Notes under the pieces: model-generated | What the model saw: the letters and a program-made list of their open reading frames with translations, nothing else | Told to the model about the DNA's origin: nothing | Database searches by the model: none | Shown here: piece by piece, positions 8,590 to 22,259 of the stretch | Layout of the letters: every line of letters starts with the position of its first letter | Position numbering within the stretch: position 1 is the first letter of the stretch | Program-made: the position numbers and the translations under genes | NCBI RefSeq assembly: GCF_000277125.1 | Contig: NC_016946.1 | Span: 620,001 to 684,000, forward strand | Origin: Mycobacterium intracellulare ATCC 13950 | GTDB lineage: Bacteria > Actinomycetota > Actinomycetes > Mycobacteriales > Mycobacteriaceae | Direction of reading: 5' to 3' | Length of the DNA stretch: 64,000 nt

Positions 8590-9672
8590 ATGTCCGAGAA
8601 GGTTCTTGTCACCGGGGGTTTCGGGCTCGTCGGCTCACAAACGGTGCGTCGGCTGGTCGCCGACGGCCACCGCGTGGTCGCGACGGATCTGGGCACCCCC
8701 ACCCAGCGCAAGGCGGCGAGGACGCTGCCCGACGGCGTCGAGGCGCACTGGGCCGATCTGACCGACCCGGGCCATGTCGACCGCCTGCTCGCCGCGACCT
8801 CACCCACCGCCATCGTCCACCTGGCCGCGGTGATCCCGCCCGGGATCTACCGCAGTCCCGCCCTCGGGCGCCGCGTCAACGTCGACGCGACCCTCACGCT
8901 GCTGCGCGCCGCGCAGGCCCGGCCGCACCCGGTGCGGTTCATCCAGGCGTCGAGCAACGCCGTGTACGGGGCGCGTAACCCGCACCGCAGCGCCGAGCTG
9001 TTGCGCGCCGATTCCCCGATGAACCCGGCTGATCTCTACGGCGCGCACAAAGCCGAAGCGGAACAGCACATCCGGTCCTCGAACCTCGAATGGGTGATCT
9101 TGCGCCTGGGCGGGGTGATAAGCGTCGACCCGGAGGCCATGCCGTTCAGCGTTGACGCACTGTTCTTCGAAAGCGCCCTGCCGGCGGACGGGCGCATCCA
9201 CACCGTCGATGTGCGTGACGTCGCCCGTGCGTTCGCCGCGGCGACCACGGCCGACGTCGTCGGTGAGACCCTGCTGATCGCCGGCGACGAGTCGCACCGG
9301 ATTCGGCAGGGCGAGGTCGGCAAGGCGCTGGCCGCCGCCCGGGGTCTCGTCGACGTCCTGCCCGGGGGACGTCCGGGTGATCCCGACAGCGACGACGGCT
9401 GGTTCGTCACCGACTGGATGGATACCGCTCGCTCCCAACAAGTCCTGCAATTCCAGCACCACTCGTGGCCGGACATGCTCGACGAGATGCGCGCGACGGC
9501 GGGGTGGCGGCGCTACCCGATGCGGTTGATCTCGCCGCTGGCGCGGCGGTTTCTCAAAAGCCGTGCGGCCTACCGGGATACGCCCGGACGCTACGCCGAT
9601 CCGTGGGGTGCCATCCGGGCGAAGCTGGGTGAGCCGCGCCCCGATGCCCCGGGTGCCGCGAGCGGCCCCTAG
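8590..9672 (+). CDS. NAD-dependent epimerase/dehydratase family protein
   Basis: 360 residues from ATG 8590. The longer frame from 8470 lies over the promoter. The Rossmann motif TGGFGLVGS (residues 8-16) opens the extended short-chain dehydrogenase fold, and a YxxxK catalytic pair is present as YGAHK (about 150). This family acts on nucleotide sugars, sterols or flavonoids; nothing here fixes the substrate. The C-terminal part (SPLARRFLKSRAAY) is ordinary for the family. It is followed by a convergent small gene 12 bp away. It has no counterpart at this place in M. tuberculosis. Confidence 0.85.
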   Translation: MSEKVLVTGGFGLVGSQTVRRLVADGHRVVATDLGTPTQRKAARTLPDGVEAHWADLTDPGHVDRLLAATSPTAIVHLAAVIPPGIYRSPALGRRVNVDATLTLLRAAQARPHPVRFIQASSNAVYGARNPHRSAELLRADSPMNPADLYGAHKAEAEQHIRSSNLEWVILRLGGVISVDPEAMPFSVDALFFESALPADGRIHTVDVRDVARAFAAATTADVVGETLLIAGDESHRIRQGEVGKALAAARGLVDVLPGGRPGDPDSDDGWFVTDWMDTARSQQVLQFQHHSWPDMLDEMRATAGWRRYPMRLISPLARRFLKSRAAYRDTPGRYADPWGAIRAKLGEPRPDAPGAASGP

Positions 9673-10250: not shown

Positions 10251-10718
10251 TTATCGAGGCCCGTCGAGCGGATACAGGGCGGGAAGATTGATCACGATCG
10301 CTTCCTGGGTGCTGCGGGCGATCACGACCTCGGCCGCGGTATCGGGGTCGGGGTTTTCTTCCCGGTGCGGAAGATACGGCGGAATGAAGACGTAGTCACC
10401 GGGTTCGGTGGCAATACGTACCTCTTGGGTGCCGTCGTGAAACACGAACTCCGGGTGGCCGCTTCGCACATAGATCGCGGTCTCCGAGTCACCGTGGTGA
10501 TGGTTGTCCGAGGCGGATTTCGGCGACGCGTGCGTCTCACCCATCCAGAGCTTTTCCGCTCCGACCGACGCGCCCGATAGGGCGGCGAAGCGCCGCAGCC
10601 CCTCCGACTGTGTGGTGTCCGAGCTGATCTCGGACGCCTTGATGTGGCGCACTCGGTTGCGGGCGACCGGTGCGGCCGTGTCGTCGAAGTCGGGATGGAA
10701 TCCGTCGGAGGTGGCCAT
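10251..10718 (-). CDS. Cupin-domain protein
   Basis: 155 residues with a single cupin barrel at about 45-140. Motif 1 is recognisable as SDNHHHGDSETAIYVRSGHPEF, with three histidines and a glutamate as metal ligands. Motif 2 follows as PGDYVFIPPYLPHREENP with its histidine. It is a small metal-binding enzyme or sensor; dioxygenase, isomerase and small-molecule binding roles are all possible. It is the last gene of the six-gene minus-strand operon, 3 bp behind the disulfide reductase. Confidence 0.85.
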   Translation of the reverse strand: MATSDGFHPDFDDTAAPVARNRVRHIKASEISSDTTQSEGLRRFAALSGASVGAEKLWMGETHASPKSASDNHHHGDSETAIYVRSGHPEFVFHDGTQEVRIATEPGDYVFIPPYLPHREENPDPDTAAEVVIARSTQEAIVINLPALYPLDGPR

Positions 10719-10721
10719 GGG

Positions 10722-12176
10722 TCAATTATCGTCCCGGCCATCCCGATACGCTTCGAGCAATCTCAGCCACAGCTCGCTGATCGTCGGGAAGCACGGCACG
10801 GCGTGCCACAAGCGGTCGACGGTCACGTGGCCGGCGACGGCGATGGTCGCCGAGTGCAACAGCTCGGTCACGCCGGGGCCGACCATGGTGACGCCCAGCA
10901 GCCGCCCGCTCTCCTGGTCGACCACCATTCGTGCGCGGCCGGTATAACCGTCGGCGTAGAGTTTCGCCCCCATCACCACGTCCCCGATCTCGATATCGAC
11001 GGCTCGGACCCGGTAGCCGGCGTCCCGGGCTTGTTGGCTTGTCAGTCCGACCGCGGCCGCTTCGGGATCGGTGAAGAAGGCTTGTGGCACCGCGTAGTGG
11101 TCTGCGGTGGTCGCGTGTGCACCCCACGCGCTGGTGTCCAACGGTCTTCCGGTTGCGCGTGCTCCGATGGCCGCGCCGGCGATGCGGCCCTGATACTTGC
11201 CTTGATGCGTGAGCAGGGCGCGGTGGTTGACGTCGCCGGCGGCGTAGAGCCAGCCGTCCTCGACCGCGCCGCGCACGAGGCAGGTGTCGTCCACCTCGAG
11301 CCAGCTGCCCGGCTCCAATCCCACTGTGTCCAAGCCGATATCGTCGGTCAGCGGTGCCCGACCGGTGGCGAACAGCACCTCAGTCACGGTCAGCTCGCTG
11401 CCATCGTCCAATTCGAGGACCACGCTCGTGTCGTCCTGGCGCCGCAGCGCGCGCACCGTGACACCTACCCGCACATCGACGCCGGCGTCGCTGAGCCCGC
11501 GGGCGATCAGCTCGCCCACGAACGGTTCCATGCGGGGTAACAACCTCGACCCCCGCGACAGGAGCGTCACTTGGGAGCCCAATCCCTGCCAGGCCGTAGC
11601 CATTTCGACACCCACGCCGCCGGCGCCCACGACGGCCAGCCGCTCCGGGACCGCGCTGCTGTCGGTGGCGCGCCGGTTGGTCCACGGCTTGGCCTCTGCC
11701 ATTCCGGGCAAATCGGGCAGGGCGGGACGGCTTCCGGTGCACACGACCACCGCATGCCGCGCGGTGAGCCCGACACGCTCGTCGCCGGTGGTGACGACGA
11801 CTCGCCGGGGGCCGTCCAACCTTCCATGACCGCGTACCAACGTCGCGCCGATTCCGCTCACCCAATCGGCCTGGCCGCTGTCATCCCAGTCGGTCACATA
11901 CCGGTTGCGGCGGCCGAAGACACCGTCGGCGCTGATGGATCCGGTGATCGCTTCCCGAGCACCGTCGACGCGTCGCGCGTCGGCGAGGGCAATGACGGGA
12001 CGCAGCAACGCTTTACTGGGCACGCACGCCCAGTAGGAGCACTCGCCCCCGACGAGTTCGCGTTCGATAATGGCGACGCGCAGGCCCGCGGCGCGGGCGC
12101 GTTCGGCGGCGTTCTGCCCGATCGGTCCGGCGCCGAGCACGATGACGTCGAAGTCTCGTTCGCTAGCTATTGCCAC
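10722..12176 (-). CDS. Pyridine nucleotide-disulfide oxidoreductase (Rv0794c-like)
   Basis: 484 residues from GTG 12176. The FAD site [19 protein letters not shown] is at the N-terminus. The redox-active cysteine pair is present in [13 protein letters not shown] (C-x4-C) and the NAD(P) fold follows at [10 protein letters not shown]. The C-terminal dimer motif is altered, [11 protein letters not shown] instead of the HxHPT-SE of lipoamide dehydrogenase, which argues against Lpd and for a mercuric-reductase- or Rv0794c-like enzyme. The gene matches Rv0794c, one of the few genes of this stretch shared with M. tuberculosis. It overlaps the dehalogenase by 14 bp. The electron acceptor is unknown. 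Confidence 0.9.
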
Positions 12177-12870
12177 TCTTGGCGATCCCTTCGGTTTGGG
12201 TTAGGCGCTCGGCCAGCTCGCGAAGGTTGCCGGCGACGATGTTCGGCTGCGGCAGGCTGCGGACCGGTAACGGCGCGTTGCCGCGCCGGGTGATCAGAGC
12301 CGCACTGAACCCGACGCTCTGCGCGCCGAGGGTGTCCCACACGTGTGCGGCCACCATCATGCAATCACCGGGTGTCACACGGAGCTCGTCGCACACGTAC
12401 CGATAGACGGCGGGCGACGGTTTGAAGGCGCGGCGGGCATCGACGCTCAGTTGGCGCTCGAAAAAGCCGGCCAGCCCCGAATTCTGTAGCGCCGTCGGGC
12501 CGTCCGGGTTGGGTGGGGAGTTCGTCAGGGTTACCAACCGAAAACCGTTGTCGCGCAATGTGGCGAGGCCCTCGGCGGCATCGGGGTGTGCCGGCATGGT
12601 GAGCAACCCGGTCGTCAGGCGATCGAGGTGGTCATCGGTGACGTCCACCCGGTGGACGTCACCCAGCATGCGCAGCACCGCCTGAGCGAGAACGGGGAAC
12701 GGCACGTACTTGCCGGCCAGTGTGATGGTCATCGAGTACTGAATGAGCTGACCGAACCACTCGCGCAGCACGCGTTCGTCGCCGAACAAGTCCGCGAAAA
12801 GCGGTGCGAGGGACTCGATGTCGATCAGCGTCTCGTTGACATCGAAAACGAGGACGGAGGGTGTCGTCAT
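12163..12870 (-). CDS. Haloacid dehalogenase type II family hydrolase
   Basis: 235 residues from ATG 12870, chosen because it lies 1 bp after the preceding stop. The nucleophile motif is VFDVNETL (residues 7-14). The motif with serine is LVTLTNSPP and the lysine/aspartate motifs are [10 protein letters not shown] and [14 protein letters not shown]. This pattern (FDVNETL, AAHxWD) is that of L-2-haloacid dehalogenase-like proteins, which hydrolyse 2-haloacids; phosphatase activity on other substrates cannot be excluded. Fourth gene of the six-gene operon. Confidence 0.88.
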
Positions 12871-12871
12871 G

Positions 12872-13465
12872 CTAGGGCTCGACCTTTTTAACGTTGGGCA
12901 CATCCGGCCGCAGATACCCCGCCAGACACATGCAAATCAATACCATTCCGACGGCCGGCCACCACAATGCGACGACTGCCGCCGCCGCGAAGACGCCGAT
13001 CGTGATGAACGACCGCATGCGTAGCAGTCGGCGCACTCGCTGGGTGAGGTCCTCGTGGGCGGGCCGATCGACCACTTCCTGGCACAGCGCCAAGTAGGTG
13101 ATGTTGACGAGCACGAACACCGAGGCATACAGAACCACCGGTGCGGCGGCCAGCCTGCTGTCGGCGATCCACTCGGTGGTGATCGGAATCAGCGACACCG
13201 AGAACAAGTGCGCAAAGTTCGACCACACCAATCGTGGCGTCGCCACTTGCGCGTAGCCGAACAGGTGGTGGTGATTCACCCAGACGATGGCGATGAACAC
13301 GTAGCTGACCACATAGCTCAGTCCGGTGGGCCATTCCGGTAATAACGCGTTGAAGGTGTAGGACTTCGGCGGCTTGAGCTCGAGGACGAGGATCGTGATG
13401 AGGACCGCAAACACTCCGTCTGAGAATGCGCCCACCCGGTCTGGACTCGTTTTCCGCGCGGCCAC
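12872..13465 (-). CDS. TMEM175-family (DUF1211) potassium channel-like membrane protein
   Basis: 197 residues from GTG 13465. The first helix carries RVGAFSDGVFAVLITILVLEL (from residue 10), the R-x3-FSDG signature of bacterial TMEM175 channels. About six hydrophobic segments follow, as expected for the bacterial single-repeat form that assembles as a tetramer. Family knowledge points to potassium-selective leak conductance. It is embedded in an operon of soluble detoxification-type enzymes, with gaps of 9 bp and 1 bp to its neighbours. One possibility is a potassium-linked electrophile response, but that is speculative. Confidence 0.85.
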   Translation of the reverse strand: MAARKTSPDRVGAFSDGVFAVLITILVLELKPPKSYTFNALLPEWPTGLSYVVSYVFIAIVWVNHHHLFGYAQVATPRLVWSNFAHLFSVSLIPITTEWIADSRLAAAPVVLYASVFVLVNITYLALCQEVVDRPAHEDLTQRVRRLLRMRSFITIGVFAAAAVVALWWPAVGMVLICMCLAGYLRPDVPNVKKVEP

Positions 13466-13474
13466 GACGCCTCC

Positions 13475-13906
13475 TCAACCCCGCTGGTGGTTTCGTTCCT
13501 GCAAGACCCAGGCGTTCCCGTCGGGATCGCGAAAGTCGGCGAAGCTCGCGTAGTCACCGCGATCGGGGTCGGTACCCGGGAGGAACCCGCCTCTCCAGCC
13601 GCCGTCGGTGTCCTTGTGGCGGATCTCGCCGACGGTTACGCCGCGACCGATCAACTCGGCGCGGCAGGCTTCGATGTCCGGGACCACGAGGTATAGGCCC
13701 CGCACCGAGCCGGCCGGCGCGTCGGTCAATCCCACGCCGAATTGGATTGAGGCGTGCGATCCCTCGGGCGTCAATTGGATGACCCGGAACCCGGGCGCGG
13801 GCGCGTAATCGACATCGAGGGCGAAGCCGACCTGGTCGCGGTAAAACCGTAGTGACCGGTCGGGATCGGCGACGGGCAGGATGACGACTTCGATGGACAT
13901 CCTCAT
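13475..13906 (-). CDS. VOC (glyoxalase/bleomycin resistance) family protein
   Basis: 143 residues from ATG 13906, which overlaps the stop of the DUF427 gene by 4 nt (ATGA), so the two are coupled. The pattern VVILPVADPDRSLRFYRDQVGF is the first beta-alpha-beta unit. The second unit is LYLVVPDIEACRAELIGRG, followed by FADFRDPDGNAWVLQE with a metal-ligand glutamate. Members bind metals and act as lyases, dioxygenases or drug-binding proteins. Substrate unknown. Confidence 0.85.
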   Translation of the reverse strand: MRMSIEVVILPVADPDRSLRFYRDQVGFALDVDYAPAPGFRVIQLTPEGSHASIQFGVGLTDAPAGSVRGLYLVVPDIEACRAELIGRGVTVGEIRHKDTDGGWRGGFLPGTDPDRGDYASFADFRDPDGNAWVLQERNHQRG

Positions 13907-14784
13907 GACGTGCCCCTTACCGGATTCCTTCCTAAGACCTCGTCGGTGTCCAACCCGCGGTCGACACCGTGCGGGATGACGGTTTGGCCTGGTTCCAGCC
14001 GAAGTTGCTTGCCGTCGAGGTACACATTGATTTTGTCCGGTTCGAAGGACACCAGGTTGCGGACGCGCGACACTTCGGTCCACGCATCGACGTAAGACCA
14101 CGCTGCGTGCTGGTGGCCGCCGATGTCATAGTACGAGCAGATTCCTTTGTATGGGCAAAAGGTCTGGATAGCAACGGGTTTGAGGGCGGACTCGTCGATA
14201 TCGTCGCGCTCGACGTACCATCTGGGCGCGAAGCCGGATTCATACAGGGCCACGGGTCGGTGAGTCTCGGCGATCACGCGCTCTCCATCGCGGACGACGA
14301 GATGCCGTGCCGTGGAACGGATGTCGATGCGGTGGTAAGCGTCCGCGGCGTGCCCGACGATCCGTTCCTCTTCTTCATAGAAGGCATCCATGGCGCGCCA
14401 GGCAAAAGCCACCCGGCCCTGCAGGACCGTCGCATGCGCGGGCAGACCGGTATGTTCCCAGGCGCTGTGGGCGGCCTCCCGCCCCGGTGCCTTGACGGTG
14501 AACCACTGCGTGTCGCCGAGGTCGCGGTGCTGCGTCACCCGATCCTCGGCGGTCAACGTCCCCACTTCGATATCCCCTGACGGAAAGTAGGCCACCGGGT
14601 AACGGCCGGGCTCGTGTAACAGGAGCACGTCCTCGCTGTCGGCGATCCACCGTTCCGCGAAGCGCACCCGCATCCGACGGCGCAACGGCTCGGCAAAGAG
14701 CAGCCGCGACGGCATCGGCTGCTCGGTGAGGAAGTGCCCGATCGACCCGGTTGCCAGCGGGCCCTGCTGCCATGCCAGTCCCAT
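13903..14784 (-). CDS. Tandem DUF427 protein
   Basis: 293 residues from ATG 14784 with two DUF427 beta barrels, roughly residues 30-130 and 160-265. The second is the clearer: ALYESGFAPRWYVERDDID, then FCPYKGICSYYDIG and AAWSYVDAW, the typical family motifs. The first has the degenerate form EPGRYPVAYFPSGDIE. The role of DUF427 is not established. It is the first gene of the six-gene operon; 54 bp separate it from the oxidoreductase gene upstream. The CPYKG cysteine is conserved in the family and may be functional. Confidence 0.82.
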   Translation of the reverse strand: MGLAWQQGPLATGSIGHFLTEQPMPSRLLFAEPLRRRMRVRFAERWIADSEDVLLLHEPGRYPVAYFPSGDIEVGTLTAEDRVTQHRDLGDTQWFTVKAPGREAAHSAWEHTGLPAHATVLQGRVAFAWRAMDAFYEEEERIVGHAADAYHRIDIRSTARHLVVRDGERVIAETHRPVALYESGFAPRWYVERDDIDESALKPVAIQTFCPYKGICSYYDIGGHQHAAWSYVDAWTEVSRVRNLVSFEPDKINVYLDGKQLRLEPGQTVIPHGVDRGLDTDEVLGRNPVRGTS

Positions 14785-14838: not shown

Positions 14839-15885
14839 TCACTCCAGCACGACGACCATCTTGCCGCCGGCCTCTCCGGCCTCCATCAGCCGGTGCGCCT
14901 CATGAATCTGGTCGAAGGAGAAGACCCGAGACGGTTTCGCCTCCAGCGTGCCGTCGGCGACCTGTCCGGCGATGTCCCCCAGCGGGACGTCGGACAGCGG
15001 GAAGCCAGGCGTGCCAAAGACGAAGCTGCCGAAGAAGTTCCAGTTCACACCGGATGCCATGCGCAACAGCGGGTTGAAATCCCCGATGGGCTCCAGCCCG
15101 CCCAGCCAACCGGCCAGGCAGGCCGTGCCGCCGCGGCGCAGCATGTCCAGGGAGTCGAGGATGGTGCTGTTGCCGACGAGATCGAGGACGGCGTCGATCC
15201 GGCCGCTCTCGGGAAGGTGGCCTGCCAGGTCGCGCCGCTCCAGCTCGATTCGCGACGCGCCCAATTGCTCGAGCATCGCGAAGCGTCCCCTGCTGCGCGC
15301 GGTCGCGATGACTCGTGCGCCGGCGGCCACCGCCATCTTGAGTGCGGCCTGCCCCAGGGACGACGTGGCCCCGCGTAATACCAGTGTCTGCCCGGCCTTC
15401 AGATCCAGATTGCGGAAGAGGCATGTCCAGGCCACCGCGAACGTTTCGGGCAATGCCGCCAACGCCGCCCACGACAGCTCGGAGTCGATGAGGGCGACGT
15501 TGGCCGCGCGCACGCGCGTGTATTGCGCATAGCTGCCGTTGATGGTTCGGCCGAGGCCACCCATCAGCGCGGCCACCTTGGCGCCGACCGGGAACTCACC
15601 GCCCGGGCACGAGTCCACGATGCCGACGCATTCGATGCCGCTCACCTCCGCGGCCTCGGCCCACTCGCCCCGACGCATGTGCATCTCGGCGTGGTTGATC
15701 CCGAAGCCCTTCACCGCAATGACGACTTCGCCGTCTTTCGGCAGCGGCTTGGGGAGGTCGTCGTAAACCAGGTTGTCCAGCCCGCCGAATCCCTTCAGGA
15801 TGATCGCCCGCATGGTTTCCCCGCCGGGGCGCTCGCGCACGACGGCCGGTGCGGTGGGCAGCTCTGGTGAATCCGTGACGGACAT
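14839..15885 (-). CDS. Zinc-independent alcohol dehydrogenase/quinone oxidoreductase (MDR family)
   Basis: 348 residues from ATG 15885, chosen for the ribosome site AGAGG just upstream. The medium-chain reductase fold is clear: an N-terminal GroES-like part (MRAIILKGFGGLDNLVYDDLP, GFGINHAEMHMRRGEW) and a nucleotide site around LVLRGATSSLGQAALKMAVAAGARVIATARS. The cysteine zinc ligands of true alcohol dehydrogenases are missing, pointing to an NADPH-dependent quinone or enone reductase. It carries its own TGGG-N8-CCCAG site 59 bp upstream of the start, one of four in the cluster, so it is probably controlled by the adjacent double TetR repressor. Confidence 0.88.
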   Translation of the reverse strand: MSVTDSPELPTAPAVVRERPGGETMRAIILKGFGGLDNLVYDDLPKPLPKDGEVVIAVKGFGINHAEMHMRRGEWAEAAEVSGIECVGIVDSCPGGEFPVGAKVAALMGGLGRTINGSYAQYTRVRAANVALIDSELSWAALAALPETFAVAWTCLFRNLDLKAGQTLVLRGATSSLGQAALKMAVAAGARVIATARSRGRFAMLEQLGASRIELERRDLAGHLPESGRIDAVLDLVGNSTILDSLDMLRRGGTACLAGWLGGLEPIGDFNPLLRMASGVNWNFFGSFVFGTPGFPLSDVPLGDIAGQVADGTLEAKPSRVFSFDQIHEAHRLMEAGEAGGKMVVVLE

Positions 15886-15943
15886 GGACTGCCTCTTTCG
15901 ACATCGTTGGCAGCGCGATACGCCGGTGCCTGCCGCACAATAA

Positions 15944-15959
15944 TGGGCCAACTGACCCA
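15944..15959. promoter_or_regulatory. Putative operator TGGG-N8-CCCA, copy 1 (oxidoreductase promoter)
   Basis: TGGGCCAACTGACCCA, followed by G. It lies 59 bp before the start of the oxidoreductase gene and between it and the double TetR gene. The core TGGGCCAAC is identical to copy 4 at 18530, and the GACCCAGTAT end is identical to copy 3. Confidence 0.65.
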
Positions 15960-16000
15960 GTATTATGTTCGAACGTTTCCGCCATGTCCAGGGCGGGCGG

Positions 16001-17386
16001 TCAGGAGTTGCGCTGACCGCGAGGCGCGCGGGGTCCGCCCTTGCGCGGCGAAACCGCGAACGAACGCACATAGTCGACGGCGGCGGTGACGGCGGCCCGC
16101 AGTGGCTGCGGATCGCCGGTGGCGTGCGTGAGCAGTGCGCCACCCTGGTGCGCGGCAACCAGTGGCACCGCCAGGTGGCGCGGATCGGCGTCGGGGCGCA
16201 GGTCGCCACGGTCACACATCGCCTGCAGGCCCGTGCGGAACAGTTCGATCCATTGGTCGTATCCGGCGGCCAGGTCGTCGTGGATTTCGTCGTCGGCCTC
16301 GATCAGCTCGCCCGCCAAGGACCCATAGACGCAGCCTCCGACCCGGTACACCGGATCGATGTCGGAGACGCAGGCATCGGCCCACGCCTGCAGCGCATCG
16401 AGGCTGTCGAGCGCGGCGAACTTCGCTTGAGTGTGGAAGTCCCGCACATTGTTTCGGCGTACGTCGACGACGTGCCGGGTCAGGTCGCGCTTGTCGTGGA
16501 AGTAGTGGGAGATCTGGGATCCGCCGACTTCGGCGGCGCGCCGCACCTGGTCGATGCTGGTGTTGGCGACGCCGCGCTCGAACATCAGCCGGGCCGCGGC
16601 CTCGATGATGCGCGCGCGGGTCGCCAGACCCTTGTGGGTGTACCGCGGCGAGGGATGTTCAGTCACCTGGTGGCCTTGGGCGCGGACGGATCCGCCGGCT
16701 TTGCGCGGGCGGCGGCTCCGCGCCCGGCGCGGGGGCCGCCGCGGAATCCGTTCGGCACTGTCGGTGGCGAACATCCGCAAGTAGTTCACCGCGAAACGAA
16801 TCGCATCGGCGTGCGGCCATTCCTCTTGGTAGGTGAAGGCCAAGATTCCGCCTCCTTGATGCGCGGTGATGATCACCAACGCCAGCTGCCGTGGGTCGGC
16901 ATCCGCAACCAGCAGCCCGTCGTCTTTCATCCGCTGGATTGCCTTCTCCACCAAATCGATCCACCGGCGGTAGCCGGCCGCCAACGCGTCGCGCGTGGCA
17001 TCGTCCGACTTGGCGAGCTGGCCGGCCAGCGCGTGATAGGTGGGGGTGCCGACGTATCCGATGCGCCGCAGGTAGCGCATGTTCATCTCGATCCATTTTT
17101 CGAAGTCGTCGAACGTACTCAGGCCTCGAAGCGTGGGTTGGCGGTGAAAGTCCAAGACGACGCCGATTTGGCGTCGGATCACCGCGCGAATCAGCGCGCC
17201 CTTGTCGGCGAAGTAGTGGGCGAGCTGCGAGCCGCTGACCGAGGCGGCGCGCCGCACGTTCTCCATGTTGGCCGCGGACAGGCCGTCGGTGACGATCAAC
17301 TGCGCCGCCGCTTGCACGATTCGGTCGCGGGTGGCACGCCCCTTGGCGGTCAACCGTTGTTCGTCACGAACATCGGGATGGGCCAT
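16001..17386 (-). CDS. Tandem double TetR-family transcriptional repressor (two complete TetR units in one chain)
   Basis: 461 residues, about twice the usual TetR length. Residues 14-215 form one TetR: DNA-binding helices at ATRDRIVQAAAQLIVTDG and VSGSQLAHYFADKGALI. After an Arg/Pro-rich linker (about 216-240), residues 245-450 form a second: ATRARIIEAAARLMFERG and VGGSQISHYFHDKRDLT. The two halves are clearly related, including their ligand domains (PTYHALAGQLAKSDDATRDALAAGYRRWIDL versus CVYGSLAGELIEADDEIHDDLAAGYDQWIEL, shown in pieces), so this is an internal duplication. A likely leaderless start: TAGCCT ends 6 nt before the ATG. A TGGG-N8-CCCAG site is 34 bp upstream, suggesting autoregulation. 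Inference: a single-chain pseudo-dimer controlling the cluster. Confidence 0.92.
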   Translation of the reverse strand: MAHPDVRDEQRLTAKGRATRDRIVQAAAQLIVTDGLSAANMENVRRAASVSGSQLAHYFADKGALIRAVIRRQIGVVLDFHRQPTLRGLSTFDDFEKWIEMNMRYLRRIGYVGTPTYHALAGQLAKSDDATRDALAAGYRRWIDLVEKAIQRMKDDGLLVADADPRQLALVIITAHQGGGILAFTYQEEWPHADAIRFAVNYLRMFATDSAERIPRRPPRRARSRRPRKAGGSVRAQGHQVTEHPSPRYTHKGLATRARIIEAAARLMFERGVANTSIDQVRRAAEVGGSQISHYFHDKRDLTRHVVDVRRNNVRDFHTQAKFAALDSLDALQAWADACVSDIDPVYRVGGCVYGSLAGELIEADDEIHDDLAAGYDQWIELFRTGLQAMCDRGDLRPDADPRHLAVPLVAAHQGGALLTHATGDPQPLRAAVTAAVDYVRSFAVSPRKGGPRAPRGQRNS

Positions 17387-17419
17387 CGCGTCAGGCTAAC
17401 CCGTGGGTGCCCCCGTTTA

Positions 17420-17435
17420 TGGGATCTCCAACCCA
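17420..17435. promoter_or_regulatory. Putative operator TGGG-N8-CCCA, copy 2 (double TetR promoter)
   Basis: TGGGATCTCCAACCCA, followed by G. It sits 34 bp upstream of the double TetR start, with the -10-like TAGCCT (minus strand, 17393-17398) between, so it covers the -35 region. Confidence 0.6.
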
Positions 17436-17483
17436 GACGGCGGGATCGTCACGGTCGGTTGCCGCGCGCCCGGCGGCCGGGCG

Positions 17484-18353
17484 TCACGCCCCGAGCTGCT
17501 TGGCGAGGAAGTTCCGGATCAGGGGAATGACGTCATCGAGCGCGGACTCCAACAGAAAGTGCCCGCCGTCGAGCAGGTGGATCTCGGCGTCGGGCAGGTC
17601 GTCGGCGAAGGCCTCGGCCCCGGCCGGTCCGAAAATTTCGTCGCCGCGACCCCAGACCGCCAGCAACGGCACCCGGCTGGCCCGGAAGTACTCGTGTAAG
17701 CGCGGATACAGGGGCGCGTTGGTGGCATAGTCGCGAAACAGCTTGAGCTGCACCAAGTCATTGCCGGGCCGGGAGAGCAGCGCGTAGTCGTGATGCCACG
17801 ACTCGGGATCGACCAGGGTCTCGTCGGCCACGCCGGTCACGTACTGCCACCGGGTGGCGTCCAGCGTGAGGAACTGGCGCACCGGGGCCTCGGTGTCCGC
17901 GGTGGGCTCACGCTGGTAGGCCTGTACGACCTTCCAGAAGCTCTCGACGAATCCCGCGTCATACCCGTTGCCGTTCTGGGTGATGATCGCGGTGATCGCC
18001 GACGGGTCGCGCAGCGCCAGCCGCCAGCCGATCGGCGCGCCGTAGTCCTGGACGTACATGGCGTACCTGTCGACGCCGAGGGTTCGCAACAGGCCCGCCG
18101 TGAGGTCGGTCAGCGCGTCGAAGGTGTAATCGAACTCCTCGACGGGCGGCGCGTCGGACAGCCCGAATCCGAGATGGTCCGGCGCGATGACGTGGTAGCG
18201 GTCCGCCAGGGCCGGTATCAGACCGCGAAACATGTAGGAGCTGGTGGGAAACCCGTGCAGCAACAGCGCCGTGGGAGCCCTCGGGTCGCCGGCTTCCCGG
18301 TAGAAGAGTCGGTGGCCGTCGACCGTGGCGTATCGATGATGAACAGCCGGCAT
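17484..18353 (-). CDS. Haloalkane dehalogenase-like alpha/beta hydrolase
   Basis: 289 residues from ATG 18353 (ribosome site GAGGA 5-9 nt upstream). The oxyanion motif is LLLHGFPTSSYMFRGL (about 31-46). The nucleophile is an aspartate in YVQDYGAPIGWRLAL (about 103), the arrangement of haloalkane dehalogenases and epoxide hydrolases. The acid/histidine region is VWGRGDEIFGP and DGGHFLLES near the C-terminus. It hydrolyses halogenated or epoxide substrates by family; the exact one is unknown. Two operator copies lie in the divergent intergenic region (86 and 177 bp upstream). The open frame continues upstream to 19097 but is antisense of the next gene. Confidence 0.88.
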   Translation of the reverse strand: MPAVHHRYATVDGHRLFYREAGDPRAPTALLLHGFPTSSYMFRGLIPALADRYHVIAPDHLGFGLSDAPPVEEFDYTFDALTDLTAGLLRTLGVDRYAMYVQDYGAPIGWRLALRDPSAITAIITQNGNGYDAGFVESFWKVVQAYQREPTADTEAPVRQFLTLDATRWQYVTGVADETLVDPESWHHDYALLSRPGNDLVQLKLFRDYATNAPLYPRLHEYFRASRVPLLAVWGRGDEIFGPAGAEAFADDLPDAEIHLLDGGHFLLESALDDVIPLIRNFLAKQLGA

Positions 18354-18438
18354 GACATTCCTCCTCAGCCAACGCTTTTCGCACGCGAGCGCCGCGACCG
18401 CGTTCGGTAGACATCGACAGACCAGCTCGACGTATTTT

Positions 18439-18454
18439 TGGGTTGTATGACCCA
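18439..18454. promoter_or_regulatory. Putative operator TGGG-N8-CCCA, copy 3 (hydrolase promoter)
   Basis: TGGGTTGTATGACCCA, followed by GTAT as in copy 1. It is 86 bp upstream of the hydrolase start, in the divergent region shared with the MOSC fusion gene. Confidence 0.65.
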
Positions 18455-18529
18455 GTATGCACCAAAACGGAACCGGGCAACAGCCCCGTGCGGCCGAAGT
18501 GTTGCCGTGCGGATCGCGCTGCCATATTC

Positions 18530-18545
18530 TGGGCCAACCATCCCA
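18530..18545. promoter_or_regulatory. Putative operator TGGG-N8-CCCA, copy 4 (MOSC fusion promoter)
   Basis: TGGGCCAACCATCCCA, followed by G. It is 46 bp upstream of the GTG start of the MOSC-reductase gene and shares TGGGCCAAC with copy 1. Confidence 0.6.
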
Positions 18546-18590
18546 GTTGGGGGTGACTGGTGCCATGGCGAGCCGGTTCGAGGTGACACG

Positions 18591-20297
18591 GTGGGCAAGC
18601 TTGTTTCGGTGAACGTGGGTATGCCCAAGAACGTCCGATGGCGAGACAAAACGGTCTACACCGGCATCTGGAAGACCCCGGTGCAGGGGCCGGTCATGGT
18701 GCGTCGACTCAACGTCGACGGCGACGGGCAGGGTGACCTCGCCGGCCATGGCGGGGAACAACGGGCCGTGATGGTGTACCAGAGCGAGTCCTACGACTTT
18801 TGGAAGACGTACCTGGGCCGCACCGACCTGCGGCCCGGGCATTTCGGCGAAAACTTCACCGTCACCGGGCTCGCCGACAACGAGGTGTGCATCGGTGACC
18901 GTTATCGCATCGGCGACGCCGAATTCGAGGTCACTCAACCGCGAGTCACGTGCTTTCGGGTCGGTCTTCGCCTCGACGAGCCCGACATGCCCAATCTGCT
19001 TGTCTCCCAGCACCGTCCGGGTTTCTATTTCCGGGTCATCACCGAAGGCCGGGTGCGGGCCGGGGACGACATCGTGCGGACCCGCCGCGGCCGCCACCGG
19101 CTCAGCGTCGCCGAGGTCGACGCGTTGCTCTACCTGCCGGACCGCAACGTCGAGCGGCTGCGCGAGGCCGTCGATGTTCCGGGGCTGAGCCCGGGATGGC
19201 AGCAGTCTTTTCGTGACATGCTGGCCGCACCCGATGGTGCGGCCGCGGCCTCGCCCATCCCGGTCGAACCCGGATGGAAGGGGTTCCGAAACCTACGGGT
19301 TGTCGAGACGCGTCGGGAGAGCCCGCAAGTGCTCTCGATTCGGCTGCAGGCCGACGACTCCGACCCGCTGCCGCCCGCGCTACCGGGTCAGTACCTCACG
19401 GTGAAGATTCCCGGGGCCGGTGAGCCGGCGCCGTTGCGCAGCTATTCCCTGTCGGGCGATCCGTCGGCCGGGTACTACCGCATCAGCGTCAAGCGGGAGG
19501 ATCACGGACTGGTCAGCGGCTGGCTGCACACCCACATCCGGCCGGGGATGGTGATAACGGCGGCCGCCCCGCGCGGCGACTTCTGCCTCACCGAGGACCG
19601 GCGCCCCGTCGTGCTCTTTTCCGCCGGAATCGGGGCGACGCCGGTGCTGGCGATGTTGCATGCACTCGCGGGGGCGGGCAGCGAGCGAGACATCTGGTGG
19701 GTGCACGCCGCTCGCAATCGCCAAACCCAGCCCTTTGCCGCGGAAGTCGCAACGCTGATCGAGTCGTTGCCTCACGCCCGTCAGCAGGTTTTTTACTCCG
19801 AAACGCAGGGACGGCTGAACCGTGATGCCATCGCGGGATTGGGATTGCCGACCGATGGCGTCGTTTACCTCTGCGGGCCAACGCAATTCATGGCGGACAT
19901 CCGCGAATACCTGGTCGGCATCGGATTCGACCCCGCGTTGATCCACAGCGAACTATTTGGTGCGCTGCCCGCGATCAACCCCGGCGTCGTCGAAACGGGA
20001 CCGCACAGGCCGCCCCATCAGCCCGCCGGGCCGCCGGGCACGGGGCCGTCGATCACGTTCGCGCGCAGCGGGTTGACGGCCCACTGGTCGCCGGACTACG
20101 GCAGCATCCTCGGGCTCGCCGAAGCCTGCGATGTGCCCACCCGCTTCTCCTGCCGGAGCGGCGTCTGTCATGTGTGCGTCACCGGGGTCGTCGCCGGGAC
20201 GACCACCTACGTCCAGCGGCCGCTGGAGCCACCGGCCGACGGGTCTGTGCTGATCTGCTCGGCGGCTCCCGAAACCGATGTGGTGCTTGACCTTTAG
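18591..20297 (+). CDS. MOSC domain - ferredoxin reductase - [2Fe-2S] ferredoxin fusion oxidoreductase
   Basis: 568 residues from GTG 18591 (ribosome site GAGGTG upstream; nearby ATG/GTG codons are out of frame). Residues 1-215 are a MOSC sulfur-carrier/molybdopterin-associated domain, with the YiiM-like FGENFTVTG and QPRVTCFRVGLR cysteine region. About 230-470 is a flavodoxin-reductase-like FAD/NAD module: LRSYSLSGD, then FSAGIGATPVLAMLHAL and YLCGPTQFM. The C-terminal 85 residues hold a plant-type [2Fe-2S] site, CRSGVCHVC plus a later cysteine in LICSA. Electrons would pass from NAD(P)H through flavin and iron-sulfur cluster to the MOSC partner site, as in N-oxide reduction systems (inference). 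Divergent from the dehalogenase-like gene with two operators between them. Confidence 0.92.
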   Translation: MGKLVSVNVGMPKNVRWRDKTVYTGIWKTPVQGPVMVRRLNVDGDGQGDLAGHGGEQRAVMVYQSESYDFWKTYLGRTDLRPGHFGENFTVTGLADNEVCIGDRYRIGDAEFEVTQPRVTCFRVGLRLDEPDMPNLLVSQHRPGFYFRVITEGRVRAGDDIVRTRRGRHRLSVAEVDALLYLPDRNVERLREAVDVPGLSPGWQQSFRDMLAAPDGAAAASPIPVEPGWKGFRNLRVVETRRESPQVLSIRLQADDSDPLPPALPGQYLTVKIPGAGEPAPLRSYSLSGDPSAGYYRISVKREDHGLVSGWLHTHIRPGMVITAAAPRGDFCLTEDRRPVVLFSAGIGATPVLAMLHALAGAGSERDIWWVHAARNRQTQPFAAEVATLIESLPHARQQVFYSETQGRLNRDAIAGLGLPTDGVVYLCGPTQFMADIREYLVGIGFDPALIHSELFGALPAINPGVVETGPHRPPHQPAGPPGTGPSITFARSGLTAHWSPDYGSILGLAEACDVPTRFSCRSGVCHVCVTGVVAGTTTYVQRPLEPPADGSVLICSAAPETDVVLDL

Positions 20298-20319: not shown

Positions 20320-21117
20320 CTACGCGGTCAGCGGGACGGATGCCTCCGCCGTGTAGCACAGGAAGGTGAGCGTCTCCTGCAGATACAGCTGCACGGTGTC
20401 CGCGTCGTGGCTGGTGTAGCCGATCGTGACGTCGGTCCCGAGCTGCAGGTCGAAATCGCCGCCGCGGGTGGTCAGCACGAAGGCGCCGTCGATGGCCGGG
20501 GCCCAGATGATGTCTCCGGGAACCAGCCGGTCGATGTGTTCGAGGATCGGATATCCATGTTGGGTCGTCTCGCTGACCTTCGTGTAGACGTCGGCGGACA
20601 GCAGTACCGAGTACGGGCCGTCGACGCCGGCCAGGCGGAGCTCGGAGATCGCCTGGGTGATGACGTCGGGAATCTCGCTGGGGTCCGCCGGCAGCGTCAG
20701 CGTCTTGTTGGAGCTGGCGGAACGGATGCCTTCGATCGACGCCGCGGCATAGCCCTCGAAGATCGCCCGGTCTTCCACGAACGCGAGCTTCTTCGCCGCC
20801 GCCTTGACCGGGTCCCAGTCGGAGTCGTTGGCGCCGCGCTCGACGTTGTCGATCTCGTAGCGCGACAGGGTGAACGGAACGCGAAGCCGCACAAGCGGTT
20901 TGCTCTCACGCAGGTGCGCCTCCACGCCCTCGGTGGGTGACGCCACGTTGGCCAGCCGTCCGGTGCTGACGGCGGCGGCGACGGGACCGCCGGGCTCGCT
21001 GACGTCGACGACCCGGCGCCCGGCGATGTGGCGCTTGAATGTCCGGGTCGCCTCCAATTCGATTTCTTTCCAGGCGGCTTCGGTGACCGGTGCCAGGTCG
21101 CGGTAGAGGTTGTTCAT
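20320..21117 (-). CDS. Family 1 encapsulin nanocompartment shell protein
   Basis: 265 residues, the usual length for the HK97-fold encapsulin known in M. tuberculosis as Cfp29/Rv0798c. It starts [20 protein letters not shown]. Shared family stretches include VVDVSEPGGPVAAAVSTGRL, then EGYAAASIEGI and LQLGTDVTIGYTSHDADTVQLYLQETLTF. Subunits assemble into a hollow shell that packages the peroxidase. Its ATG overlaps the peroxidase TGA (ATGA), so shell and cargo are translationally coupled. Confidence 0.96.
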   Translation of the reverse strand: MNNLYRDLAPVTEAAWKEIELEATRTFKRHIAGRRVVDVSEPGGPVAAAVSTGRLANVASPTEGVEAHLRESKPLVRLRVPFTLSRYEIDNVERGANDSDWDPVKAAAKKLAFVEDRAIFEGYAAASIEGIRSASSNKTLTLPADPSEIPDVITQAISELRLAGVDGPYSVLLSADVYTKVSETTQHGYPILEHIDRLVPGDIIWAPAIDGAFVLTTRGGDFDLQLGTDVTIGYTSHDADTVQLYLQETLTFLCYTAEASVPLTA

Positions 21118-22127
21118 GAAGTGGTTCCTTTCAGGCTGCCGATCGAAAGTGAGCCGTCCTGTGCAACAGACGTTTCCGCCGCCGCCGGCGTTGCGGGCAG
21201 GGGCGGGGGATCATCGAGAAAGTCGACGGTGGGGGAGAAGAACAACCCGCCGGTGATGGCGGTGGAGAAGTCGAGGATGCGGTCGGTGTTGCCGGGCGGG
21301 TCGCCGAGGAACATGTTGCGCAGCATCTGTTCGGTGACTCGCGGTGTGCGCGAATAGCCGATGAAGTACGTGCCGTACTCGCCCTTGCCGAGCTCGCCGA
21401 ATGGCATGTTGTGCCGGACGATTTTCAGTTCGGTGCCGTCGTCGTCGGTGATGACGTTGAGGGCGATGTGGGAGTCATCCGGCTTGACGTCGTCGTCGAG
21501 TTCGATGTCCTCGAGCTTGGTGCGGCCGATCACTCGCTCCTGTTCGGTGACCGAGATCGCGTTCCACGCGGACATGTCGTGCACGTATTTCTGGACGTGC
21601 ACATAGCAGGAGCCGGCGAAGTCGGGGTCCTCGTCGCCGATCGCGGTGGCGCTGACGGCAAGTGGGCCGTCCGGGTTCTCGGTGCCGTCGACGAACCCGA
21701 GCAAGTCGCGGTTGTCGAAATACCGGAAGCCGTGCACCTCGTCGACGACGGTGACCCCGCCGGCCATCGATTTCAAGATCCGGTCGGCCAGTTCGAAACA
21801 GACGTCCAGACTCTCGGCCCGGATGTGGAACAACAGGTCCCCGGGCGTGGCGGGAGCGTTGTGACGCGGGCCGTTCAGTTCGATGAACCGGTGCAGTTCG
21901 GCGGGACGCGGCCCGGAAAACAAGCGGTCCCAGGCGTCCGAGCCGATCGAGGCGATCGCCGACAACCGCTTCTGCGGCTCGCGGAAACCGATCGCGCGCA
22001 CCAGTCCGGATACGTCCTGCAGCGCGTCGTGGACGGTTGCCTCTCCACCGTCGTCGATGGTCACCACGAGGAAGATCGCCGCGGGCGTCAGCGGCGCGAG
22101 GACGGGTTGCGGCTGGACGGGGGGCAC
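21114..22127 (-). CDS. Dye-decolorizing (DyP-type) heme peroxidase, encapsulin cargo
   Basis: 337 residues from GTG 22127, set by similarity of the N-terminus ([18 protein letters not shown]) to Rv0799c. The frame stays open far upstream to 23660, but that is antisense of the aminopeptidase. The GxxDG heme-pocket motif is [11 protein letters not shown]. The region [24 protein letters not shown] contains the proximal histidine and distal arginine expected for class B DyPs. The last residues [12 protein letters not shown] are the encapsulin targeting peptide, so the enzyme is packaged in the shell encoded just downstream. The role is peroxide-dependent oxidation, linked in mycobacteria to oxidative and acid stress. 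Confidence 0.95.
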
Positions 22128-22133
22128 TCTGGT

Positions 22134-22259
22134 GACCCTAGCGTGGCGACGGTGAGCGCCGGAAGCGGCGCGAGCAAGGAGCGCGCAATCGACCCTAGCG
22201 TGGCGACGGTGAGCGCCGGAAGCGGCGCGAGCAAGGAGCGCGCAATCGACCCTAGCGTG
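22134..22259. repeat. 57-bp tandem repeat, two full copies plus 12 bp (VNTR/MIRU-like)
   Basis: The unit begins GACCCTAGCGTGGCGACGG at 22134 and recurs at 22191, with a third partial GACCCTAGCGTG at 22248. The two full copies appear identical. The array fills the divergent spacer between the DyP and aminopeptidase genes. It ends about 33 bp before the aminopeptidase ATG, so copy number could alter spacing of both promoters. Confidence 0.9.

Follow-up and report, generated by a model that had tools for sequence, protein, structure and literature searches.

A putative autoregulated TetR regulon in Mycobacterium intracellulare, with an unequal TetR pair fused into one chain and a conserved near-palindromic operator

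The closest described system to the one presented here is Mce3R (Rv1963c), a double TetR regulator of Mycobacterium tuberculosis with a reported structure (PDB 9b7y). It is reported as autoregulated and as reading a non-palindromic, asymmetric 25-bp operator with non-identical helix-turn-helix (HTH) units (PMC11667970). That structure concerns asymmetric DNA, and how and why TetR proteins become single chains was left open. Regarding the enzymes, another report mentions YiiM-like proteins that carry additional flavin and [2Fe-2S] domains (PMC10637980). Here, we analyzed a stretch of 64,000 nucleotides of Mycobacterium intracellulare ATCC 13950 (contig NC_016946.1, positions 620,001 to 684,000), from now on the window, with coordinates counted from its first base. 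It encodes a double TetR regulator surrounded by four copies of the motif TGGG-N8-CCCA and by redox and detoxification genes. We consider it very likely that they form an autoregulated repressor regulon, in which an unequal TetR pair, fused here, acts on near-palindromic operators. The observation was confirmed and is stronger than a first-pass annotation of this DNA had claimed, and the regulator is more interesting than stated there.

The operators, the regulator and the genes that the operators directly precede are the following:

14839..15885, minus strand, MDR (zinc-type, quinone-oxidoreductase-like) oxidoreductase, first gene of the run under operator 1
15944..15959, operator 1, TGGG-N8-CCCA, 2 bp past the CATAAT -10 box of the MDR promoter
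15962..15990, minus strand, predicted promoter of the MDR run, TGGACA, 17 bp, CATAAT (consensus scan)
16001..17386, minus strand, double TetR regulator, 461 aa, with the N half at about 1-225, the linker at about 226-247 and the C half at about 248-461
17420..17435, operator 2, upstream of the regulator gene, where it may serve autoregulation
17484..18353, minus strand, alpha/beta hydrolase, 289 aa, with D103-D238-H265 and HGFP
18439..18454, operator 3, upstream of the alpha/beta hydrolase, its first T being the last base of a CATACT -10-like box (by eye)
18530..18545, operator 4, upstream of the MOSC-FNR-ferredoxin gene, with TTGCCG-17-TATTCT promoter-like boxes (8/12) ending on its first base
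18591..20297, plus strand, fusion of YiiM-like MOSC, 3-alpha, FAD/NAD reductase and [2Fe-2S] ferredoxin domains (MOSC-FNR-Fd), 568 aa

The first-pass annotation had reported four sites, and they lie exactly at the positions it gave (15944, 17420, 18439, and 18530). All four are intergenic and lie 34-86 bp away from the start codons of their respective genes, and the sub-words it described are present (TGGGCCAAC in copies 1 and 4, GACCCAGTAT in copies 1 and 3). The CATACT box at operator 3 has no scored -35 box in the window.

Overall, the window contains seven copies of TGGG-N8-CCCA vs. 1.26 expected. The remaining three, at 8690, 12017, and 46312, lie within gene-like open frames. The one at 12017-12032 is a coding decoy that also appears in relatives (e.g. 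L009-L015) because it encodes the Y-W-A-C-V-P-S-K stretch of a flavoprotein. Across the whole 5.40 Mb genome (5,402,402 bp), the bare motif is at background level (111 copies vs. 121 for the reversed control), and the evidence therefore lies in its clustering and its conservation in relatives, not in its abundance. A scoring matrix trained on 211 sites, excluding those of the window and of the three nearest loci (L005, L009, and L097), gave the four window sites scores of 32.5, 29.8, 22.4, and 22.3; the next-ranked window position scored 8.0, and the top of 40 resampled windows 15.8.

To follow the motif in relatives, we compared 57 mycobacterial loci: the window, 14 named and 42 unnamed. A scan of named genomes gave 15 loci, 14 of them with an orthologue at 68-88% identity in the best segment. 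A genus sample of 248 genomes contained 85 with the regulator at E <= 1e-60, including the window's own, and the loci of 45 of the other 84 were fetched, hand-picked for spread. Three duplicate genomes (L077, L081, and L083, of L009, L010, and L014) were dropped from the 57 loci and retained in the trees.

Near the regulator, these loci contain 227 motif copies outside homology-mapped genes and one inside, although some of the 227 may fall in other, unmapped genes, since "inside" covers only the regulator halves, hydrolase, MOSC, MDR, DUF427, VOC, and encapsulin genes. The control dyads GGGT/ACCC, TGGC/GCCA, and TCGG/CCGA gave 5, 5, and 15 copies in total (outside/inside 2/3, 5/0, and 9/6), counted over a slightly smaller area than the motif, for which 300 bp upstream of MDR/DUF427 were added. 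Gene starts were defined by homology; mechanical calls take the farthest-upstream start codons and overrun the sites (55 sites "in genes"). The first-pass annotation had proposed scanning related genomes upstream of the orthologues, and the motif was found there. All 47 loci with an MDR or DUF427 gene after the regulator have a copy at most 260 bp before the first of these. A copy also lies at most 300 bp before 48 of 49 hydrolase genes and 26 of 35 MOSC-FNR-Fd genes, and before the regulator gene in 48 of 57 loci. The operator precedes DUF427 instead in loci without MDR in its place (e.g. L006 and L010), and it stays beside MDR in L016 despite DNA inserted after the regulator. Conservation extends to the flanks and inner bases (A at -1 in 78%, Y at 6 in 91%, R at 11 in 87%, and A at 18 in 69%), giving the near-palindromic outline A-n-TGGG-tYR-nn-YR-n-CCCA-n-A.

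In addition, a tandem pair of operators with 22 bp spacing tracks the regulator across the genus sample. It was found in 51 of the 85 genomes with the regulator and in 0 of the 163 without it (Fisher p 1.8e-30, ignoring genome relatedness); its reversed control was absent from all 248. The pair occupies 56 places, all but one within about 3 kb of the regulator. No exact tandem pair is present in the window. In genome G066, a second tandem operator (L126:7378-7415) is on a different contig from the regulator. It lies 10 bp from an AAA/LuxR-type regulator frame, on the start side, and another pyridine-nucleotide-disulphide reductase gene is nearby.

The first-pass annotation had suggested a self-contained system, and the sequence supports a locally self-contained regulon, with one regulator, four operators, and a site before the regulator's own gene. 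We also considered a genome-wide regulon, and the extended pattern TGGGHYNNNNRDCCCA gave no reason to retain it, with 18 genome places vs. 22 for the reversed control. It occurs at 14 places outside the locus, and 11 were inspected. Ten of them lack AT flanks and lie under stop-to-stop frames of at least 120 codons, which are weak evidence of coding in GC-rich DNA; one (L028) is not under such a frame. Among these 11 of 14 places, no clear distant target was found in this genome.

At the level of the regulator, Pfam placed both units in the TetR family, with TetR_N in two stretches and TetR_C_13 and TetR_C_6 above cut-offs. The AlphaFold2 model was confident across both halves (pLDDT 89.3, pTM 0.89), with pLDDT below 50 at residues 229-240 of the linker, and the two halves are predicted to pack as a pseudo-dimer. 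The first-pass annotation described a single-chain double TetR. This holds for the window, but it is one outcome among several fusions of a pair of genes: the halves are two genes in 31 of the 57 loci and one chain in 26 (in L103, the regulator is one open frame). In the nearest relatives (L005 and L097), an in-frame stop closes the first gene, and a candidate start of the second lies 27 bases further along; the window has a glycine codon in place of this stop, and its linker corresponds to the former spacer. The fusion recurs, with this linker, in two more database sequences (98-99% identity), and it is therefore not one assembly's error.

A tree containing both halves separates them into one N group and one C group, which also take in the paralogue pairs. 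In the joined tree, the window's fused chain is nested among split loci, and the fused or split state needs seven changes, at least five of them forced by well-supported branches. Both halves were found in 85 of 85 genomes with the regulator and at 4 of 4 paralogue loci, as would be expected for two subunits of an obligate heterodimer, and among the 31 split loci, 15 have a candidate start that overlaps the stop codon of the first gene. The identity between N and C ligand domains averages 34% in a subsample. A cysteine present in 61 of 61 C halves is found at that column in 0 of 61 N halves, which indicates that the halves have specialized. The same cysteine is present in the solved relatives 3qbm and 3rd3, and a NemR-like cysteine redox switch is only a lead.

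Paralogous N/C pairs were detected in 4 of the 248 genomes (L117, L118, L119, and L120), always as separate genes and convergent in L117 and L118. In all four, TGGG-N8-CCCA lies 41-75 bp before the start of the N-type match, and several of these sites read roughly TGGG-K-CATRTG-M-CCCA. Aldehyde dehydrogenase, CoA-transferase, and methionine sulfoxide reductase genes are near the L117 pair, and an SDR gene is near that of L120.

The DNA-reading helix is the same in both halves, with G-S-Q and H-Y in 57 of 57 N halves, 57 of 57 C halves, and 4 of 4 paralogue pairs, and this explains the symmetric operator. We searched for relatives at the order level (200 genomes, E <= 1e-30). The hits outside the genus were single TetR units with 35-54% identity, and a few of the 39 single-unit hits came from the genus. 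Among the 20 single-gene TetRs fetched, 12 have the helix GSQ-x-x-HYF (11 from other families of the order and one from the genus), some of them close relatives of one another. Nine of these 12 have TGGG-N8-CCCA in the 400 bp preceding their own gene, compared with none of the 8 others (Fisher p 0.0014, ignoring relatedness). N halves, C halves, and 8 of the 12 helix-bearing proteins share one side of a well-supported branch, whereas N plus C alone as one clade was neither shown nor rejected (approximately unbiased test, AU p 0.30).

On balance, we lean towards an oligomer series on an unchanged operator core. It would start from a homodimer-type TetR encoded by one gene in other families of the order, pass through an obligate two-gene heterodimer in many mycobacteria, and lead several times independently to a single-chain pseudo-dimer. 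In mycobacteria, the homodimer-type TetR of this operator would probably have been duplicated into the N/C pair and then repeatedly fused, in the window's lineage by loss of the first gene's stop codon. The half keeping the ancestral cysteine may be the sensor, and its partner may have kept mainly the DNA-reading face.

The products of the split genes could instead each homodimerize on the same operators, with no obligate heterodimer and with fusions as neutral accidents. Such homodimers could bind, given that both halves share the reading helix and that helix-bearing single-gene relatives carry the same palindrome. However, the repeated fusions and splits together with the retention of both halves in every genome, the overlapping starts and stops, and the long-term divergence of the halves at the cysteine all fit a working pair, and the model of a fused chain has a confident score over its whole length. 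We consider independent homodimers unlikely. It also seems quite unlikely that the regulator acts as Mce3R does, as a single chain on an asymmetric 25-bp operator that homodimerizes and perhaps loops DNA between operators. Two TetR units in one chain would suit it, but the detected sequence similarity to Mce3R is limited to one HTH. Moreover, the reading helices match here and the operator is near-palindromic, whereas Mce3R is reported with a non-palindromic operator and non-identical HTHs (PMC11667970).

The position of the operators relative to promoters suggests how the fused pair would act. Before MDR/DUF427, the exact TGGACA-17/18-CATAAT promoter is found in 28 of 47 loci, although the boxes are the best over a small offset range, which favors agreement. 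The last operator begins 2 or 3 bp past the -10 box. The 22-bp tandem pair is present there in 31 of 47 loci, and its other operator falls within the -35/-10 spacer; the window retains the MDR promoter and the second operator of this arrangement. A TetR protein at the spacer or at the -10/start region normally blocks polymerase. With the site immediately after a conserved -10 box, the MDR/DUF427 geometry is best explained by a protein that represses by occluding the promoter. An activator, or an activator and repressor in one, would be compatible with the operator between -35 and -10 in tandem loci, but seems highly improbable for sites that cover the spacer or the -10/start region, where TetR proteins normally act as blocks. 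Finally, that the dyad belongs to another factor or is a promoter element, with the neighboring regulator incidental, agrees with its position at promoter boxes but is close to negligible: tandem sites are absent from the 163 sampled genomes without the regulator, the same motif precedes the paralogues and single-gene relatives that share the helix, and 48 of 57 loci also have it before the regulator gene.

Several results weigh against a repressor pair acting at all these sites. No exact site was found within 300 bp upstream of the regulator in 9 of 57 loci, nor upstream of 9 of 35 MOSC genes; among the latter, an SDR-type gene adjoins MOSC-FNR-Fd in six loci, one of the six being domain-scanned. 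A promoter-like pair (at least 8/12) ending on the site's first base was seen at only 17 of 48 hydrolase and 14 of 26 MOSC sites, and no conserved promoter boxes were found at the regulator's own site in the 57-locus comparison. The inner operator bases displayed little pairwise covariation beyond the mean consensus. Two deep-branching fused loci (L116 and L122) lack most target genes in the fetched stretch: that of L116 contains no target genes and no exact motif, and that of L122 contains HAD and one motif only. Among the single-gene relatives, 3 of the 12 with the helix have no exact site, and the comparison covers 20 of the 39 single-TetR hits.

Taking both sides together, we propose that the two recognition helices, with the same reading face, would enter the two TGGG half-sites of one operator. 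With operators at or beside the -10/start region of the target promoters (most clearly at MDR/DUF427), the bound protein would block RNA polymerase. A ligand or stress signal, probably sensed by the diverged ligand domains, would release the repressor and switch on the MDR, DUF427, VOC, TMEM175, HAD, flavoprotein disulphide reductase, cupin, and alpha/beta hydrolase genes and the self-sufficient MOSC reductase.

This gene set is larger than that of the first-pass annotation, which had drawn the regulon too small. Operator 1 heads seven tightly packed minus-strand genes, beginning with MDR and reaching 10251, that would presumably form one transcript. The other six are:

13903..14784, minus strand, DUF427 (NTP_transf_9) protein with two domain copies, gene 2 of the run
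13475..13915, minus strand, VOC/glyoxalase-family protein
12872..13465, minus strand, TMEM175-type channel homologue (tblastn with the window's open reading frame; Pfam TMEM175 in relatives L106 and L111)
12163..12903, minus strand, HAD-type hydrolase (tblastn; Pfam Hydrolase/HAD in relative L121)
10722..12176, minus strand, pyridine-nucleotide-disulphide oxidoreductase, a flavoprotein (tblastn; Pfam Pyr_redox_2 in relative L009)
10251..10718, minus strand, cupin-like small protein (named by eye from the sequence), last gene of the run

Across the 57 loci, the most frequent gene was the hydrolase (48), followed by HAD (42), the flavoprotein (41), MOSC-FNR-Fd and DUF427 (35 each), MDR (32), cupin (28), TMEM175 (24), and VOC (17); the fetched stretches span 7.6 to 18 kb, so these absences are partly edge effects. 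In some relatives (L110, L111, and also L106), the TMEM175-type gene adjoins operators of its own, which supports its membership in the regulon. At L103:4841-5464 (regulator orientation), MOSC-FNR-Fd is present only as short pieces, perhaps decayed.

Other genes were observed beside the regulon. Encapsulin (Linocin_M18) and DyP peroxidase genes adjoin it (window 20320-22200), the former in 31 and the latter in 30 of the 57 loci, and in the window no motif copy lies before them. In the L093-L096 group, a luciferase-like monooxygenase gene is nearby (L093:4270-5172, L094:4969-5871), and in L093 it points away from the hydrolase with an operator between them.

For the alpha/beta hydrolase, the Asp-Asp-His triad (D103, D238, and H265) and HGFP, both as in dehalogenases, were invariant in 14 of 14 aligned sequences. 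The halide-binding pair of haloalkane dehalogenases consists of the Trp after the nucleophile and an Asn or a second Trp. In the hydrolase, Tyr104 and Phe35 align with the Trp and the Asn of solved dehalogenases, in a comparison restricted to these two positions. Thus, despite the triad, the dehalogenase label of the first-pass annotation is not supported.

The MOSC protein contains Pfam MOSC and YiiM_3-alpha domains, as in YiiM-type proteins, and a QPR-x-x-C stretch whose cysteine we take to be the MOSC cysteine. This residue aligns with a cysteine of YiiM (5yhh). An N-hydroxyl-reducing enzyme would fit this architecture, which combines the YiiM domain and the aligned cysteine with reductase and ferredoxin domains in the same chain, and the earlier guess of N-oxidized compounds would agree with a MOSC domain of the YiiM type. 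Judged by all the genes together, the trigger may be reactive electrophiles, quinones, or N-oxygenated compounds.

In the literature, mostly outside subscription journals, we found nothing among the matches listed on this regulon, on such a fused and split TetR pair, or on this operator. The locus would thus define a conserved mycobacterial redox and detoxification regulon not found in print by these searches. The same regulator exists as two genes and as one chain, with operator core and helix unchanged, which makes a direct test of the effects of fusion possible on a dimeric switch, in terms of affinity, dosage, and asymmetry of sensing. Moreover, the correspondence between the GSQ-x-x-HY helix and the TGGG half-site is a candidate recognition rule for annotating a group of actinobacterial TetRs.

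When compared to known systems, Mce3R is the best structural match to the model of the window's regulator, and in both, a single chain holds two TetR units that pack as a pseudo-dimer (a predicted packing here). However, they have 13% identity over the fold (13-15% across structural alignments), and the window's regulator differs in its matching G-S-Q/H-Y faces, its near-palindromic sites, its target genes, and in belonging to a family that also exists as two genes. We rejected it as an Mce3R orthologue: a profile search reaches Mce3R in HTH stretches, the best of them pairing 22-72 with 222-272, with a whole-sequence E of 1.1e-5. The single-gene GSQ-x-x-HYF TetRs have the same recognition helix and upstream dyad but one TetR unit and different neighbors; no second unit was seen near them in the short fetched stretch, the rest of their genomes not being searched. 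NemR of Escherichia coli (PDB 4yze), a TetR electrophile sensor, has one TetR unit per chain, unlike the regulator of the window. Finally, among the YiiM/YcbX/mARC MOSC reductases of N-hydroxylated compounds, the MOSC protein of the window shares the YiiM-type MOSC domain with its cysteine and the 3-alpha domain, and it differs in that its gene sits in a TetR regulon.

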